Shown here in pieces: positions 9,994 to 57,658 of a DNA stretch of 64,000 nt. A program made the translations under genes and the position numbers. Origin of the DNA: Synechococcus sp. PROS-7-1. GTDB taxonomy: Bacteria > Cyanobacteriota > Cyanobacteriia > PCC-6307 > Cyanobiaceae. The notes below the pieces were generated by a model. That model saw only the letters and a program-made list of their open reading frames with translations, was not told the DNA's origin and made no database searches. Each line of letters starts with the position of its first letter. Positions within the stretch are counted from its first letter, which is position 1. Where the stretch lies: assembly GCF_014279795.1 (NCBI RefSeq), contig NZ_CP047945.1:1322572-1386571 (forward strand), in the 5' to 3' direction.

Positions 9994-10014
9994 TCCGATC
10001 CGTCATTGCACAGA

Positions 10015-11322
10015 ATGGGACTTTGCCACGGGACCCTGACAGCGATCTCATCCGGTCCTGCACTGGAACACCTCACTCTCTCGAACAAAAGCACCCTGGT
10101 GTCAGCGGAACTTCCGGGTGCTGAACTCACCTGCCTGGATTTCTGGTGTCGGGGAGGAAGCTTCTGGGAACGCAACGGTGAAGAGGGCATCGCTCACTTT
10201 CTCGAACACATGGTGTTCAAGGGGAGTGAGCGGTTGCAACCCGGAGACTTCGATCGCCAAATAGAGGCGCTCGGCGGCACCAGTAATGCCGCCACCGGGT
10301 TCGATGACGTGCACTTCCACGTTCTTGTTCCACCCAAGGAGACACCAGCAGCGTTGGACCTGCTTCTGGATCTGGTTTTGCACCCCTCACTCGACCTGGA
10401 TGCTTTCGCGATGGAGCGCGAAGTCGTGCTCGAGGAAATTTCCCAGTACCGCGACCAACCCGATGATCTGGTTTTTCAGCGGGTGCTGGAACTCTGCTTT
10501 CCCGAACATCCCTATGGCCGTCCCGTTCTCGGACTCGACTCCAGCTTGAAAGCGATGGATCCCTCGGGAATGCGTCGCTTTCACCAACGGCGCTATCAGG
10601 GTCCGAACTGTTGCCTTGCCGTAGCTGGAGCCATTCCCACGGACCTCATCAACCAAGTCAGGGGGAGCGCGCTCACAGCATTGAGCGATGGTGCTGATAC
10701 CGCAGCCCCGAACGCTCCTGATGAAAGAGGGGGTACAGCGGAACAGCTGCCTTTTCAAAGCGGAAGGGAGTGCCAGAGCTTTCCCAGGCTGGAATCAGCA
10801 CGCCTATTGATGGTCTGGCCAACCGCTGCGGCCTCGGATCCCATCGGGGTCGCGGGGGCGGACCTGGCGACCACGATTCTGTCCGAAGGTCGCCGGAGCC
10901 GGCTGGTGCAACTTCTTCGCGAAGATTTGCAGATCGTCGAGTCCATCGACATGGACGTGACGACCCTCGAGCAGGGAAGCCTTGTGATGCTTGAGGCATG
11001 CTGCCCTGAAGAGCAACTGCCGCGGGTTGAACAGGAAATCAGAGAGGAACTGCAGCGCAGCGCCGAGGAACCTGTGCTCGAGGAGGAACGGAAGCGAGCT
11101 TTCCAACTGGTGGGCAATGGATACCGATTCAGCCTTGAGGCCCCTGGCTCGGTAGCGGGCTGCGCGGGCTCCCAAGCCGTATGGGGACGGCAGCGTCAGC
11201 TGCTCGAACCTCTCAAAGATCTCGAAGAGTGGAGCGCGACGGCCCTCCAAGAGCGTGTGATGCAGCGGCTCCAGGCAGACCAGGCATGCACCTTGATCGC
11301 CCGACCATCGGAATCATCATGA
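10015..11322 (+). CDS. M16 family zinc metallopeptidase, catalytic-type subunit
   Basis: This is a processing-protease-like (insulinase family) enzyme, 435 residues from ATG 10015. The inverted zinc motif HxxEH is present as HFLEH (His61, Glu64, His65), and the downstream acidic ligand region EREVVLEEISQ lies about 75 residues later. The frame is open from 9958, but that form would overlap pcyA on the other strand; family members begin near ISSGPALEHL. The gene runs into a second M16 gene with an ATGA overlap. By analogy with other bacterial pairs the two products probably form a heterodimer. Peptide substrates are unknown. Confidence 0.9.
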   Translation: MGLCHGTLTAISSGPALEHLTLSNKSTLVSAELPGAELTCLDFWCRGGSFWERNGEEGIAHFLEHMVFKGSERLQPGDFDRQIEALGGTSNAATGFDDVHFHVLVPPKETPAALDLLLDLVLHPSLDLDAFAMEREVVLEEISQYRDQPDDLVFQRVLELCFPEHPYGRPVLGLDSSLKAMDPSGMRRFHQRRYQGPNCCLAVAGAIPTDLINQVRGSALTALSDGADTAAPNAPDERGGTAEQLPFQSGRECQSFPRLESARLLMVWPTAAASDPIGVAGADLATTILSEGRRSRLVQLLREDLQIVESIDMDVTTLEQGSLVMLEACCPEEQLPRVEQEIREELQRSAEEPVLEEERKRAFQLVGNGYRFSLEAPGSVAGCAGSQAVWGRQRQLLEPLKDLEEWSATALQERVMQRLQADQACTLIARPSESS

Positions 11323-54610: not shown

Positions 54611-54665
54611 GCCTGGCCTCGAGTCTCAATAAACATTACTATTGAGAATGAAAAGCAGGTTTCGG

Positions 54666-55115
54666 ATGCCATCTGTCTCCACGCAACCCGAGACTGGCGG
54701 ATCTCTGAAGCAAGGGCTGCATCAAGACGGACGTCGACTGACACCCCAGCGCCGGCGGATCCTTGAGTTGTTCGAATCGCTTGGAGGTGGACGGCATCTC
54801 AGCGCGGAGGACGTGCACCATCAACTACTGAATCGTCAGTTGAAGGTCTCACTGGCCACCATCTATCGCACCCTGAGGCTGTTGGTGGAGATGGGGTTTC
54901 TTCAGGAATTGCAAACAAGCAACGGCAGCCAGTTCGAACTCGCTGACGCCGAACACATCCGTCACCACCACCTGGTTTGCGTGCGCTGCGGGCGCACTGA
55001 GGACTTCGAAAGTGAAGCCGTTTTGAATGCGGGCTTACTAGCCAGCAAGGGATTTGGCTTTGACCTCATCGGCTCCAGCCTCACGGTGCGAGGGATTTGC
55101 CCTCAGTGCCGATAA
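54666..55115 (+). CDS. Fur-family transcriptional regulator (PerR/Zur-like)
   Basis: The 149-residue protein from ATG 54666 (ATG 54648 also possible) has the winged helix (LTPQRRRILELFESLGGGRH, then LATIYRTLRLLVEMG). The dimerisation domain has HIRHHHLVCVRCGRTEDF and a final CPQC, giving two CxxC zinc motifs. The region before the start (54625-54660) is AT-rich and holds imperfect inverted elements that could be an autoregulatory operator. Its sequence resembles the PerR-like cyanobacterial group, but Zur or Fur cannot be excluded. Confidence 0.88.
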   Translation: MPSVSTQPETGGSLKQGLHQDGRRLTPQRRRILELFESLGGGRHLSAEDVHHQLLNRQLKVSLATIYRTLRLLVEMGFLQELQTSNGSQFELADAEHIRHHHLVCVRCGRTEDFESEAVLNAGLLASKGFGFDLIGSSLTVRGICPQCR

Positions 55116-55122
55116 AGAGGAG

Positions 55123-55605
55123 TCAGTGATGCTCCTGCGGATGCTCCAGGCAAGGCATCCAGAAGTCCCCCATTTGGTGGGCCCCCTTGCAACCAAGGCT
55201 CTTGGCCTGTTCTTCGGCAAGCTCTCGGGTTGGGTAAGCAAGCGTGCTGGGATCATCCCCATTCAGGGACCCTGATCCTTCACCGCCGTGATGCGCGTGG
55301 TGATCATGATCACCTGGTTTGTCTCCCAATCGCACCAGGCCCATACTCATTGGCCCTGCGGTCCACACCCCCATGGTGTTCACCCCGACCGCAAGCAACC
55401 CCATCCCCACGATCGAGAGATTGATCACACCCATGGCCACAACGCCAATGGAGACCACACCCATCGGAACGATTCCGATACACACGACCCCCATCGGAAC
55501 GATTCCAATAGACACCGTGCCCAGAGGAGCGACACCGATGGCCAGCCGTTTGGGTTTACTGCCGCAGTGGGCAGGCCCCTGATCAGAAGGTTGTGACGCG
55601 TTCAT
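55123..55605 (-). CDS. pentapeptide-like repeat, His-rich protein with DUF3721-like C-terminus
   Basis: The 160-residue protein starts at ATG 55605. From residue 23 to 94 Gly occurs at every fifth position (24, 29, 34 ... 94, only Ser64 differs). The units are of type [I/M/L/V]-G-[I/V]-x-x, with alternating Ile-Gly-type and Met-Gly-type units, i.e. ten-residue pairs. Then comes GDHDHHAHHGG (about 98-108), a likely metal-binding run. The C-terminus (CKGAHQMGDFWMPC) matches my recollection of DUF3721. It converges on the Fur-family gene with 7 nt between stops. Confidence 0.8.
   Translation of the reverse strand: MNASQPSDQGPAHCGSKPKRLAIGVAPLGTVSIGIVPMGVVCIGIVPMGVVSIGVVAMGVINLSIVGMGLLAVGVNTMGVWTAGPMSMGLVRLGDKPGDHDHHAHHGGEGSGSLNGDDPSTLAYPTRELAEEQAKSLGCKGAHQMGDFWMPCLEHPQEHH
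55324..55539 (-). repeat. tandem 15/30-nt coding repeat
   Basis: The DNA encoding residues 23-94 is a degenerate tandem array with unit 15 nt (5 codons) and superunit 30 nt. The 17-nt string CCCATCGGAACGATTCC occurs exactly at 55460-55476 and 55490-55506, 30 nt apart, which indicates a recent unit duplication or correction. Confidence 0.85.
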
Positions 55606-55660
55606 GCACCCATGATGACGTTTGCCCCCACCACGCCTACGCCGAGCCAAGCTGAATGTG

Positions 55661-55921
55661 ATGAACATTGGTCAGCTCCAAGGATTCCACGAGGTTCTCG
55701 TGATCACCCCCCTGACATTCGAGCAGGGTGCGGAAGCGGTTTTGGCCGTTCGCGACCAATGCACCGTGGTGCTGAATCTCACGGCCATGGAGCCATCCTT
55801 GGCGCAAAGAACTGCCGATTTCGTCTCCGGAGGAGTCAGAGCACTCGATGGCCAGGAACATCGCGTTGGAGATCAGGTTTTGCTTTTTGCGCCAGCCAAC
55901 GTCGACGTGAATCTCAGCTGA
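55661..55921 (+). CDS. short SepF-like (DUF552) cell division protein
   Basis: The 86-residue protein from ATG 55661 contains only the SepF core: GFHEVLVITPLTFEQGAEAV, TVVLNLTAMEPSLAQRTADF, VSGGVRALDGQEHRVGDQVL and LLFAPANVDV. SepF ties FtsZ to the membrane and regulates septum assembly. The N-terminal amphipathic membrane helix of full-length SepF (~150-200 residues) is missing, so it may be an accessory paralogue. Its 3' end overlaps the convergent arsS by 8 nt. Confidence 0.85.
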   Translation: MNIGQLQGFHEVLVITPLTFEQGAEAVLAVRDQCTVVLNLTAMEPSLAQRTADFVSGGVRALDGQEHRVGDQVLLFAPANVDVNLS

Positions 55922-56858
55922 GCGAACCGCCACAACTGGATCCCTGTCCAGCTGTGCAACCAAAGCAATGATCAGCAACGGCAATGGGCTGATCGACCAA
56001 GCCATCCTGAATTGTCAACAGATCAGCGAGCACGGCAGGCTTCGCGCCGACTGAACAACCGAGTTGTTGGTTGAAATCGCAGTCATGAAGTGAGCCGGTC
56101 CAGCTAACGCTGATCAAGGTCCGACACATCACCTCATCAAGATTGGCGGAACGATGCGCCTCTCGCAGAAGGGTTTGGTAACACTCCAGCTCTCCGCTGA
56201 CTTCCAGGTCTCGCTCAAAACGCTTGATCGGCATGTTGGCGAGCGTCAGCAATTGATGAAAAGAAATCCCATGGGATGCCTTCAGCTGCTTTCGGTATTG
56301 CTCTTCCAGTGATTGCTGAGGTGGCGGCAAGGTGGGACCCGATGGGTTGTACACAAGATCGAGCTTCAGTGAAGACCCGGGAATTCCGTATCCCAACCGA
56401 TTGAGCACTTTCAAGGCATCGAGGCTGCGCTCGAACACACCTCGGCCTCGTTGTTGATCAACCCGTTCCTGTTCATAACAAGGCAGCGATGCCACGATGC
56501 GAACACCCGAATCAGCGAGGAATTCAGCGAGTGATTCCTGCCCAGGTTCCGTGAGAATCGTGAGGTTGCATCGGTCAATCACCTCAACGTTCTGGGCGCG
56601 GGCAGCACAGACAAGGTCCCTGAACTGCGGATGAAGTTCAGGGGCACCCCCCGTCAGATCGAGGGTTTTCAACTGGCAGTGCCTCAGGACCTGCGGAATG
56701 AGCTCCACCTGATCAGGCTCCATCATTTCCGTGCGCCAGGGCCCCGCATCCACGTGGCAATGACTGCAGCTCTGGTTGCAGCGGTAGCCGAGGTTGACCT
56801 GAAGTGTTTCGAGGCGACGTCGTCGGAGTGATGGGAATGACGAAGGCAGAGCATCCAT
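55914..56858 (-). CDS. arsS: arsenosugar biosynthesis radical SAM protein ArsS
   Basis: The 314-residue protein from ATG 56858 has the radical-SAM CxxxCxxC motif at Cys27, Cys31 and Cys34 (RCNQSCSHCHVDAGP), and LDLTGGAPELHP (SAM contact). The C-terminal DUF3641-type Cys clusters follow: CDFNQQLGC and HCFGCTAGQGSSCGG. ArsS transfers the 5'-deoxyadenosyl group to dimethylarsenite en route to arsenosugars. No arsM gene is adjacent. The frame opens earlier, but those codons overlap the upstream gene's end. Confidence 0.92.
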   Translation of the reverse strand: MDALPSSFPSLRRRRLETLQVNLGYRCNQSCSHCHVDAGPWRTEMMEPDQVELIPQVLRHCQLKTLDLTGGAPELHPQFRDLVCAARAQNVEVIDRCNLTILTEPGQESLAEFLADSGVRIVASLPCYEQERVDQQRGRGVFERSLDALKVLNRLGYGIPGSSLKLDLVYNPSGPTLPPPQQSLEEQYRKQLKASHGISFHQLLTLANMPIKRFERDLEVSGELECYQTLLREAHRSANLDEVMCRTLISVSWTGSLHDCDFNQQLGCSVGAKPAVLADLLTIQDGLVDQPIAVADHCFGCTAGQGSSCGGSLS

Positions 56859-56890
56859 GGCGTCAGGTTGGATTCTGACGGACCAGGCCA

Positions 56891-57658
56891 TCAAGGTTCT
56901 GCAGCCATTCGGTCGAGGAGCGCCACCGTTATATCGTCCCCTTGGGTTTGAAGGTAGGCATACCCCGTTCCGTCGGAACGAAGAATCGCTGCATACACAT
57001 AATTCACTCCCCGGGCATCCTGCTGACGAATGCGCCCTACGCAATTGTCATCCTGAAGGAAGCGACCTTGATAGGCCGCCACCTCACCGGCACCGTCATA
57101 CGACGACACGGCCAGTCCAGCCATTTGCCACGCCGACCAGGTCTCTCGTTGAATCACGGCATTGGGAGTCCAGGCTCCATTCGCGAACGTCATCCCCATT
57201 TGACGACTGAGCACAGTGCCATCCATTGCGGAGGGTTTGCAGGCACCGGCAGGCTGGGACAACCACTGCTCCGTCACCACATCACCGACCTTCGTGCTGA
57301 TGCCAAAACGGGGGGTTCCCTGATCGGAGAGAAGAACACTGCTCCCACTTCCCTGCTGATCACGGGTCACGGTGAGACCGCAGGCGGAAACTTTTTGCCA
57401 ACGTCCCTGATACCTGGTTTCGCTGTAACGACGACCCACACGCAGAAAGCGTCGACCTCGAACCGATCCATCCTCCAACCAGGTTTCAAGCTGCAAACCA
57501 CCAAGAGGTGAATCGCCACGCTGGCCTTGGCGGATTACCAGATAACTGCCAAGTCGAGGAACGGCACACTCCTTGGGTCCCGATTCCGATTGATTGGCAT
57601 GAACTGATGCCGGCACAAGAACAGCCAACAACACTGACCCACAGAACAACGCACGCAT
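56891..57658 (-). CDS. exported conserved hypothetical protein (255 aa)
   Basis: The product has a signal peptide (ALFCGSVLLAVLVPASVHA) and a mature part with several Cys (KECAVPRLGSY, VSACGLTV, GACKPSAM, DDNCVGRI) that may form disulfides. It looks beta-rich with GRRFLRVGRRYSETRY and the C-terminal VYAAILRSDGTGYAYLQ. Two halves look alike in length but I cannot prove a repeat. Start at ATG 57658 (or two codons earlier). It may share a promoter with the divergent gene at 57736. No family named. Confidence 0.7.
   Translation of the reverse strand: MRALFCGSVLLAVLVPASVHANQSESGPKECAVPRLGSYLVIRQGQRGDSPLGGLQLETWLEDGSVRGRRFLRVGRRYSETRYQGRWQKVSACGLTVTRDQQGSGSSVLLSDQGTPRFGISTKVGDVVTEQWLSQPAGACKPSAMDGTVLSRQMGMTFANGAWTPNAVIQRETWSAWQMAGLAVSSYDGAGEVAAYQGRFLQDDNCVGRIRQQDARGVNYVYAAILRSDGTGYAYLQTQGDDITVALLDRMAAEP

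Follow-up and report, generated by a model that had tools for sequence, protein, structure and literature searches.

The locus and its gene product

The window, a stretch of 64,000 nucleotides of the Synechococcus sp. PROS-7-1 genome, contains on its reverse strand (55123-55605) a coding sequence for a protein of 160 aa, in which a Gly repeat precedes a His run and a C-terminal DUF3721 domain. The features of the locus are the following.

54642-55115, forward strand: Fur-family regulator, the convergent neighbour, a branch-specific context (Pfam, 105.6 bits)
55123-55605, reverse strand: repeat-DUF3721 coding sequence (ORF and translation; matched in 30 of 31 genus genomes)
55138-55236, reverse strand: DUF3721 domain, residues 124-156 (Pfam 64.3 bits, alignment, AF2)
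55237-55323, reverse strand: His/Asp-rich linker (DHDHHAHH), residues 95-123 (translation; a His-rich tail also occurs in distant homologues)
55324-55545, reverse strand: hydrophobic Gly repeat, residues 21-94, its pentads pairing into decads (GLTT 48.9 bits, Gly phase, alignment)
55372-55494, reverse strand: Met ladder, residues 38, 48, 58, 68 and 78, every tenth position (pool of 149 unique sequences)
55490-55506, reverse strand: 17-nt exact DNA repeat, copy 1 (exact string)
55460-55476, reverse strand: 17-nt exact DNA repeat, copy 2, 30 nt on (exact string)
55549-55569, reverse strand: HCGSKPK, residues 13-19, with conserved Cys14 and the basic stretch preceding the hydrophobic repeat
55622-55921, forward strand: short SepF-like ORF, the divergent neighbour (Pfam SepF, 73.5 bits)
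55914-57044, reverse strand: ArsS-type radical SAM gene, the co-oriented upstream neighbour (TIGR04167, 442.8 bits, cut-off 300)

In all likelihood the reading frame is translated and subject to selection, since the changes relative to three close relatives fall mostly at third codon positions (10/5/34, 10/4/28 and 14/11/48 for the three positions). In the repeat region, synonymous and non-synonymous codons stand at 21:3, 9:3 and 20:2 in the same comparisons. Ahead of the repeat, C14 and P18 are invariant in the alignment of 67 sequences, and G15 and K19 are conserved in at least 90%. Residues 21-93 have a mean hydropathy of 1.71 and a single charged residue; this hydrophobicity, together with the basic stretch before the repeat, suggests that the protein is associated with a membrane.

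A Gly repeat with a ten-residue unit

Gly occupies one phase of five at 14 positions (24, 29, 34, 39, 44, 49, 54, 59, 69, 74, 79, 84, 89 and 94), Ser64 being the sole skip, compared with a maximum of 8 in-register Gly in 20,000 shuffles of the protein. A preliminary description, made from the DNA letters, had reported 14 five-residue Gly units and a 17-nt exact string recurring 30 nt apart. Both were recovered, the units at residues 24-94 with the one skip and the string at the two positions given above, although a dedicated repeat search listed no family for this DNA repeat. The better unit is the decad, in which alternate Gly are preceded by Ile/Val and then by Met, roughly [V/I]-[S/C/A]-[I/V]-G-[I/V]-V-[P/A/G/T]-M-G-[V/L].

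The Pfam search proposed earlier returned the GLTT repeat (PF01744) at 48.9 bits (cut-off 21) and DUF3721 (PF12518) at 64.3 bits (cut-off 27). With the GLTT repeat the PROS-7-1 protein shares a five-residue unit with one Gly each, and the GLTT profile also matches all 17 distant homologues scanned (E up to 0.01). However, the PROS-7-1 repeat lacks Thr-Thr and alternates Ile-Gly with Met-Gly units; the xGLTT consensus is absent, there being no GLTT in the protein and the units reading xx[I/M]G[V/I]. The PF01744 entry presumably stems from animal proteins of unknown function, and the match may reflect composition. Pentapeptide repeat proteins and Pentapeptide_2 have the period of five in common with this protein, but it shows no A(D/N)LXX consensus, and Pfam Pentapeptide is absent from the four families that the search gave at E up to 1. 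The earlier distinction from the classical A(D/N)Lxx pentapeptide repeat thus stands at the level of sequence. Pentapeptide_2 scores 10.8 bits, below its cut-off of 26.4.

Structure prediction, also proposed at the outset, was informative for the C-terminus and left the repeat without a confident model. Mean AF2 pLDDT was 52 for the full length (67 sequences) and 50 for the repeat (55 sequences). Residues 121-150 were predicted fairly confidently (pLDDT 75-80) as a helix followed by two strands. The repeat-only model, unreliable at pLDDT 50, places strands of about seven residues every ten residues, with P-M-G near the turns, a spacing that agrees with the decad. The best structural match of the first AF2 model reached Z 3.2, a comparison that is not usable, either for assigning a fold or for judging likeness to the four-sided right-handed beta-helix of classical pentapeptide repeats. 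The sole PDB sequence match, an opsin (E 0.43), was taken as chance and rejected as a solved relative.

A ladder of Met, His and Cys

M38, M48, M58, M68 and M78 are invariant in the 67 picocyanobacterial sequences. For a wider comparison, 198 hits were pooled; requiring nine or more in-phase Gly and removing duplicates left 149 repeat regions, of which 107 carry a DUF3721-like end, 14 belong to the same family but have no such end (some of them being cut or shifted frames) and 28 come from distant cyanobacteria. Apart from one gap, no residue other than Met, His or Cys occurs at any of the five ladder positions in this pool. The pool took hits above a 50-bit limit, which left out the weaker L070 and L071, Gly repeats without such a ladder. 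His occupies position 38 in 16 and position 48 in 15 of the 28 distant sequences, a subset of which reads HHMMM, with His in the N-terminal and Met in the C-terminal units. Cys stands at position 68 in five of the 14 family sequences without a DUF3721-like end. The alternate pre-Gly positions 23, 33, 43 and 53 hold Ile, Val, Phe or Leu plus a single Thr, while 63 and 73 are looser, as is 88, and 28 is variable (Leu, Met, His, Thr, Arg, Ile).

Some Prochlorococcus carry a second, repeat-only copy directly downstream (L122 5449-5703, L143 5483-5719 and L146 5481-5720), and in these downstream copies Cys replaces Met at position 68.

A tree built with the ladder columns removed requires at least one change at position 38, two at 48 and two at 68. 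The restriction to Met, His and Cys therefore rests on few events, about five ladder changes, all within the soft-metal ligand set. It is the best sequence evidence for soft-metal binding by the repeat, which it would suggest and does not prove.

DUF3721 in the fusion and on its own

The His run and the Cys-containing, DUF3721-like C-terminus described earlier are both present. The C-terminal 33 residues match DUF3721 from end to end (profile positions 1-33 of 33), with C139, H143, M145, M150 and C152 invariant and H155 nearly so in 67 sequences. Conserved Met, His and Cys, the ligand set expected of a copper-binding chaperone, are accordingly found both in the ladder (149 sequences) and in this domain (67 sequences).

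Whereas the domain is fused to a Gly repeat here, the three other DUF3721 genes of the PROS-7-1 genome encode small proteins with, by eye, a signal-like start. Two of these three adjoin a c-type cytochrome (Pfam Cytochrome_CBB3/Cytochrom_C), in our reading c6-like, and the third has DUF411-like, DUF305, MerR and multicopper oxidase genes around it. With the 14 non-repeat loci among the best-scoring matches, 17 stand-alone loci were available; within 1.5-kb flanks, nine have a c-type cytochrome, two the multicopper oxidase/DUF305/MerR group and six neither.

Two metal islands lie at about 975-1015 kb of the PROS-7-1 genome. One (L208 4674-15583) holds ZnuA, ABC-type genes, an ArsP-type permease, HupE, a c-type cytochrome and DUF3721; the other (L209 7660-16690) holds porin-like genes, a c-type cytochrome, DUF305, MerR, a multicopper oxidase and DUF3721.

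Our literature searches found no paper using the term DUF3721 or 'GLTT repeat', and in the literature searched there was no description of the combination of repeat and DUF3721, of the ladder or of the copper contexts reported here.

Distribution

A match was found in 64 of the 99 genomes searched, PROS-7-1 included. Within the genus, 30 of 31 genomes carry one, the missing genome being 63% complete; the gene is real and core in the genus. The orthologue of Synechococcus WH7803 is 93% identical. A named-genome scan retrieved 423 stretches encoding a relative; the 80 best of them were retained, and these bear cyanobacterial titles, except for two contigs of one bin labelled Gammaproteobacteria. 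The two contigs (L080 and L087, MAG Gammaproteobacteria bacterium CPC316) show a Synechococcus-like arsS-sepF-repeat-fur locus, and the bin is probably mislabelled or contaminated.

Across the phylum, matches occurred in 67 of 291 genomes at E up to 0.001 and in 88 of 386 at E up to 1e-10, the two draws overlapping. The homologues examined outside the picocyanobacterial family carry no DUF3721 and mostly end in a His-rich tail (tail seen in 17 sequences). Two scans of viral contigs gave 16 and 22 pattern matches, none confirmed as a relative, and of two plasmid searches one returned a single weak match (36% over 69 residues) and the other none.

Neighbours in the picocyanobacterial family

As described beforehand, a Fur-family gene is encoded tail to tail with the repeat gene, at a distance of 7 nt. 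It is one of three such genes in the PROS-7-1 genome, one of the other two resembling Zur by eye. Its best matches are Fur and PerR proteins, and it reached no NCBIfam equivalog cut-off that would mark it as PerR or Zur, two subtypes that were considered. Fur and Zur regulons are treated in PMC9337993.

In all 30 genus loci the Fur-family gene is adjacent and convergent, and arsS lies upstream. Among the wider homologues (best 80 of 423), 28 have a Fur neighbour, 59 a small DUF3721 gene upstream, 14 both and seven neither, counts that are lower bounds because contig ends and overlong ORFs can hide neighbours. Twenty-nine further family loci, of which five are second copies from genus genomes and some come from genomes already in the named set, have the Fur gene in three cases and the small DUF3721 gene in 20. 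The constancy of the Fur neighbour, suggested earlier as a check, thus holds within the genus but not beyond it, and this neighbour therefore marks one branch, not function. The widely kept partner is the small upstream DUF3721 gene, whose product looks, by eye, secreted or lipoprotein-like.

Other neighbours vary. A SepF-like protein of about 87-99 aa, perhaps a second SepF paralogue, is encoded divergently from the repeat gene in 24 of the 30 genus loci. At six of the 30 (L022, L025-L028 and L031) arsS lies within 5-28 nt of the repeat ORF. Several Cyanobium-like loci have a metal-type MerR gene nearby; the three MerR proteins tested scored highest with CadR/PbrR, then with CueR and ZntR, none above the cut-off. 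Porin-like genes flank some Prochlorococcus copies, with OprB just under its cut-off.

Neighbours of distant repeat-only homologues

At L066/L067 a cytochrome c gene, the repeat gene, DUF1775 and CopC/CopD form one row. A genome-wide search located CopC in two of 24 genomes, both of one genus, where it lies some 0.8 kb away from the repeat gene. In four genera (L211, L213, L226 and L227) the repeat gene lies directly upstream of a pair formed by a BlaI/CopY-type gene and an M48/M56-type protease gene. The protease matches M48 above the cut-off and M56 below it, and CopY_TcrY lies far below its own cut-off. L226 and L227 stand outside the 24 genomes, the order having been found there by phmmer with L068 genes; other genomes of one of the four genera (L204, L205 and L224) do not have it. 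BlaI/CopY-type genes are present in 20 of the 24 genomes, singly in 19, and adjoin the repeat gene in two of these 20.

In Synechocystis, PetR and PetP sense copper and switch plastocyanin/cytochrome c6 (PMC7896320, PMC9252766). The available text of the genome-context paper gives comB and petJ as further petRP neighbours and does not name the repeat gene; slr0601/slr0602 belong to the PetRP regulon. By analogy, the BlaI-protease pairs beside the repeat genes may be PetRP orthologues. The repeat protein is not itself a regulator or a protease, and the whole PROS-7-1 genome gave no BlaI/CopY-type match, so that a PetR-type copper switch seems to be absent from this strain.

Further metal-linked genes were found at single loci. 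In L191, DUF411 and a multicopper oxidase are the second and third genes from the repeat gene; in L069, a heavy-metal P-ATPase, of Zn/Cd type by score, follows a repeat gene that looks cut short; and in L202 a CusA/CzcA-type pump lies about 1.8 kb away. Over 21 distant loci, at least one metal-linked gene was present within 1 kb in nine and none in 12. Metal-linked matches numbered 17 within 1 kb (about 74 kb of sequence) and eight farther away (306 kb), a comparison that is descriptive and inflated because the query families were chosen after being seen near these genes; 'near' was taken as an ORF edge within 1 kb, bases were counted 1.6 kb to either side, and operon genes were counted singly. 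The genome-wide CopC and BlaI searches are the cleaner test.

Two observations concern L213 and L227. Beside the repeat gene and the PetRP-like pair of L213 lies a cytochrome c-like ORF (10009-10215, forward strand) that is apparently cut short (68 aa). The repeat homologues of L213 (9028-9699, reverse strand) and L227 (3254-3688, reverse strand) end in a hydrophobic segment and a basic end, as if membrane-anchored.

Possible function

From the observed repeat, the conservation of its ladder, the domain and the gene neighbourhoods, we infer, with slightly better than even confidence, an uncharacterised membrane-associated protein that would bind soft metals, mainly copper(I), and serve copper homeostasis in cyanobacteria as a buffer or chaperone. 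Residues 21-94, the hydrophobic Gly repeat, would fold into a compact, beta-rich module embedded in the membrane or lying on it, with one Met per ten-residue unit (His or Cys in some relatives) lined up as a ladder of ligands. At the C-terminus, a capture or hand-over site would be provided by the His-rich linker together with DUF3721 and its invariant Cys, His and Met, and the small DUF3721 protein would be a possible partner outside. These geometric details are much less certain than the copper reading itself.

The copper reading is favoured because the ladder is confined to Met, His and Cys in 149 sequences and because repeat-only homologues occur near CopC/CopD, the PetRP-like pair, multicopper oxidase/DUF411 and a heavy-metal P-ATPase. 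It is further favoured by the 11 of 17 stand-alone DUF3721 loci that lie beside a c-type cytochrome or copper genes, by the small DUF3721 gene that immediately precedes the repeat gene in 59 of 80 wider homologues, and by the metal-type MerR gene close by in several Cyanobium-like loci. Given the copper-linked neighbours of repeat-only and of stand-alone DUF3721 genes, the two halves of the fusion both occur, apart, near copper-linked genes. A functional likeness to CopM and other Met/His-rich copper metallochaperones, without any claim of membership, is that many Met and His would serve as ligands, as in CopM; according to PMC12292863, however, CopM is a periplasmic helical bundle, whereas the PROS-7-1 protein has a hydrophobic Gly repeat with predicted ligands spaced by ten. 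Several findings count against copper: the 12 of 21 distant loci without a metal gene within 1 kb, the 18 of 20 genomes whose BlaI gene lies away from the repeat gene, the lack of a BlaI/PetR match in the PROS-7-1 genome, the poor quality of both AF2 repeat models and the small number of ladder changes, as Met could also serve packing.

Zinc pointers count against copper as well, and the strongest rival, which we nonetheless hold to be unlikely, is the handling of zinc or of divalent metals in general, the protein then serving ZnuABC-type uptake as a Zn-binding accessory or acting in storage. The DUF3721 gene L003 lies in the island with ZnuA and ABC-type genes (L208), the Zn/Cd-type P-ATPase follows the repeat gene in L069, the tested MerR proteins score highest with CadR/PbrR, below its cut-off, and a Fur-family neighbour with a His run fits Zn as well as Fe. 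Yet the ladder is rich in Met, and Met-rich sites are unusual for Zn; moreover, the closest links within one row (CopC/CopD, the PetRP-like pair, the c-type cytochrome) are to copper. The preliminary description had envisaged a metal- or peroxide-linked role. Its metal part gained support from evidence other than that first adduced, while no further support was found for iron or peroxide. It had named homologues without the repeat, or never near a Fur-family gene, combined with expression unresponsive to metal or oxidative stress, as telling against the idea; those surveyed have the repeat, and some lie beside such a gene. The version first put forward, in which the neighbouring regulator would control a response to iron or peroxide, agrees with the convergent neighbour in 30 of 30 genus genomes and with the Fur and PerR proteins as best matches of that regulator. 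It is nevertheless very improbable, as 52 of the 80 wider homologues have no Fur neighbour (some near contig ends), convergent genes share no promoter, and no other iron or peroxide gene is prominent near the homologues examined.

Alternatively, this might be a purely structural membrane protein, with the Gly repeat as a hydrophobic packing module, Met kept for packing and the neighbours incidental. Met does fit a hydrophobic core, more than half of the distant loci (12 of 21) have no metal neighbours, and two homologues (L213 and L227) carry the extra C-terminal hydrophobic segment. This explanation appears quite improbable in view of a ladder Met that is replaced by His or Cys and never by Leu or Ile in the 149 pooled sequences, of the recurrence of His-rich tails and of the DUF3721 Cys/His/Met set, and of copper-linked rows in several genera. 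A bolder extension of the copper reading, which we regard as highly improbable in this form, is a membrane beta-solenoid or beta-ladder whose stacked Met/His/Cys track passes Cu(I) from the His-rich/DUF3721 end to thylakoid or export cuproproteins, the HHMMM order grading affinity, and which supplies the copper signal read by PetP-type proteases.

Synechococcus and Prochlorococcus, which rank among the most numerous phototrophs, are sensitive to copper. If the copper reading is true, the protein would fill a gap in copper handling; it is present in 30 of 31 genus genomes and, in PROS-7-1, would act in a strain seemingly without a PetR-type sensor. Two families that lack a known function would also become accessible to experiment, and a Met/His ladder at ten-residue spacing would be an unusual design for a metal site.
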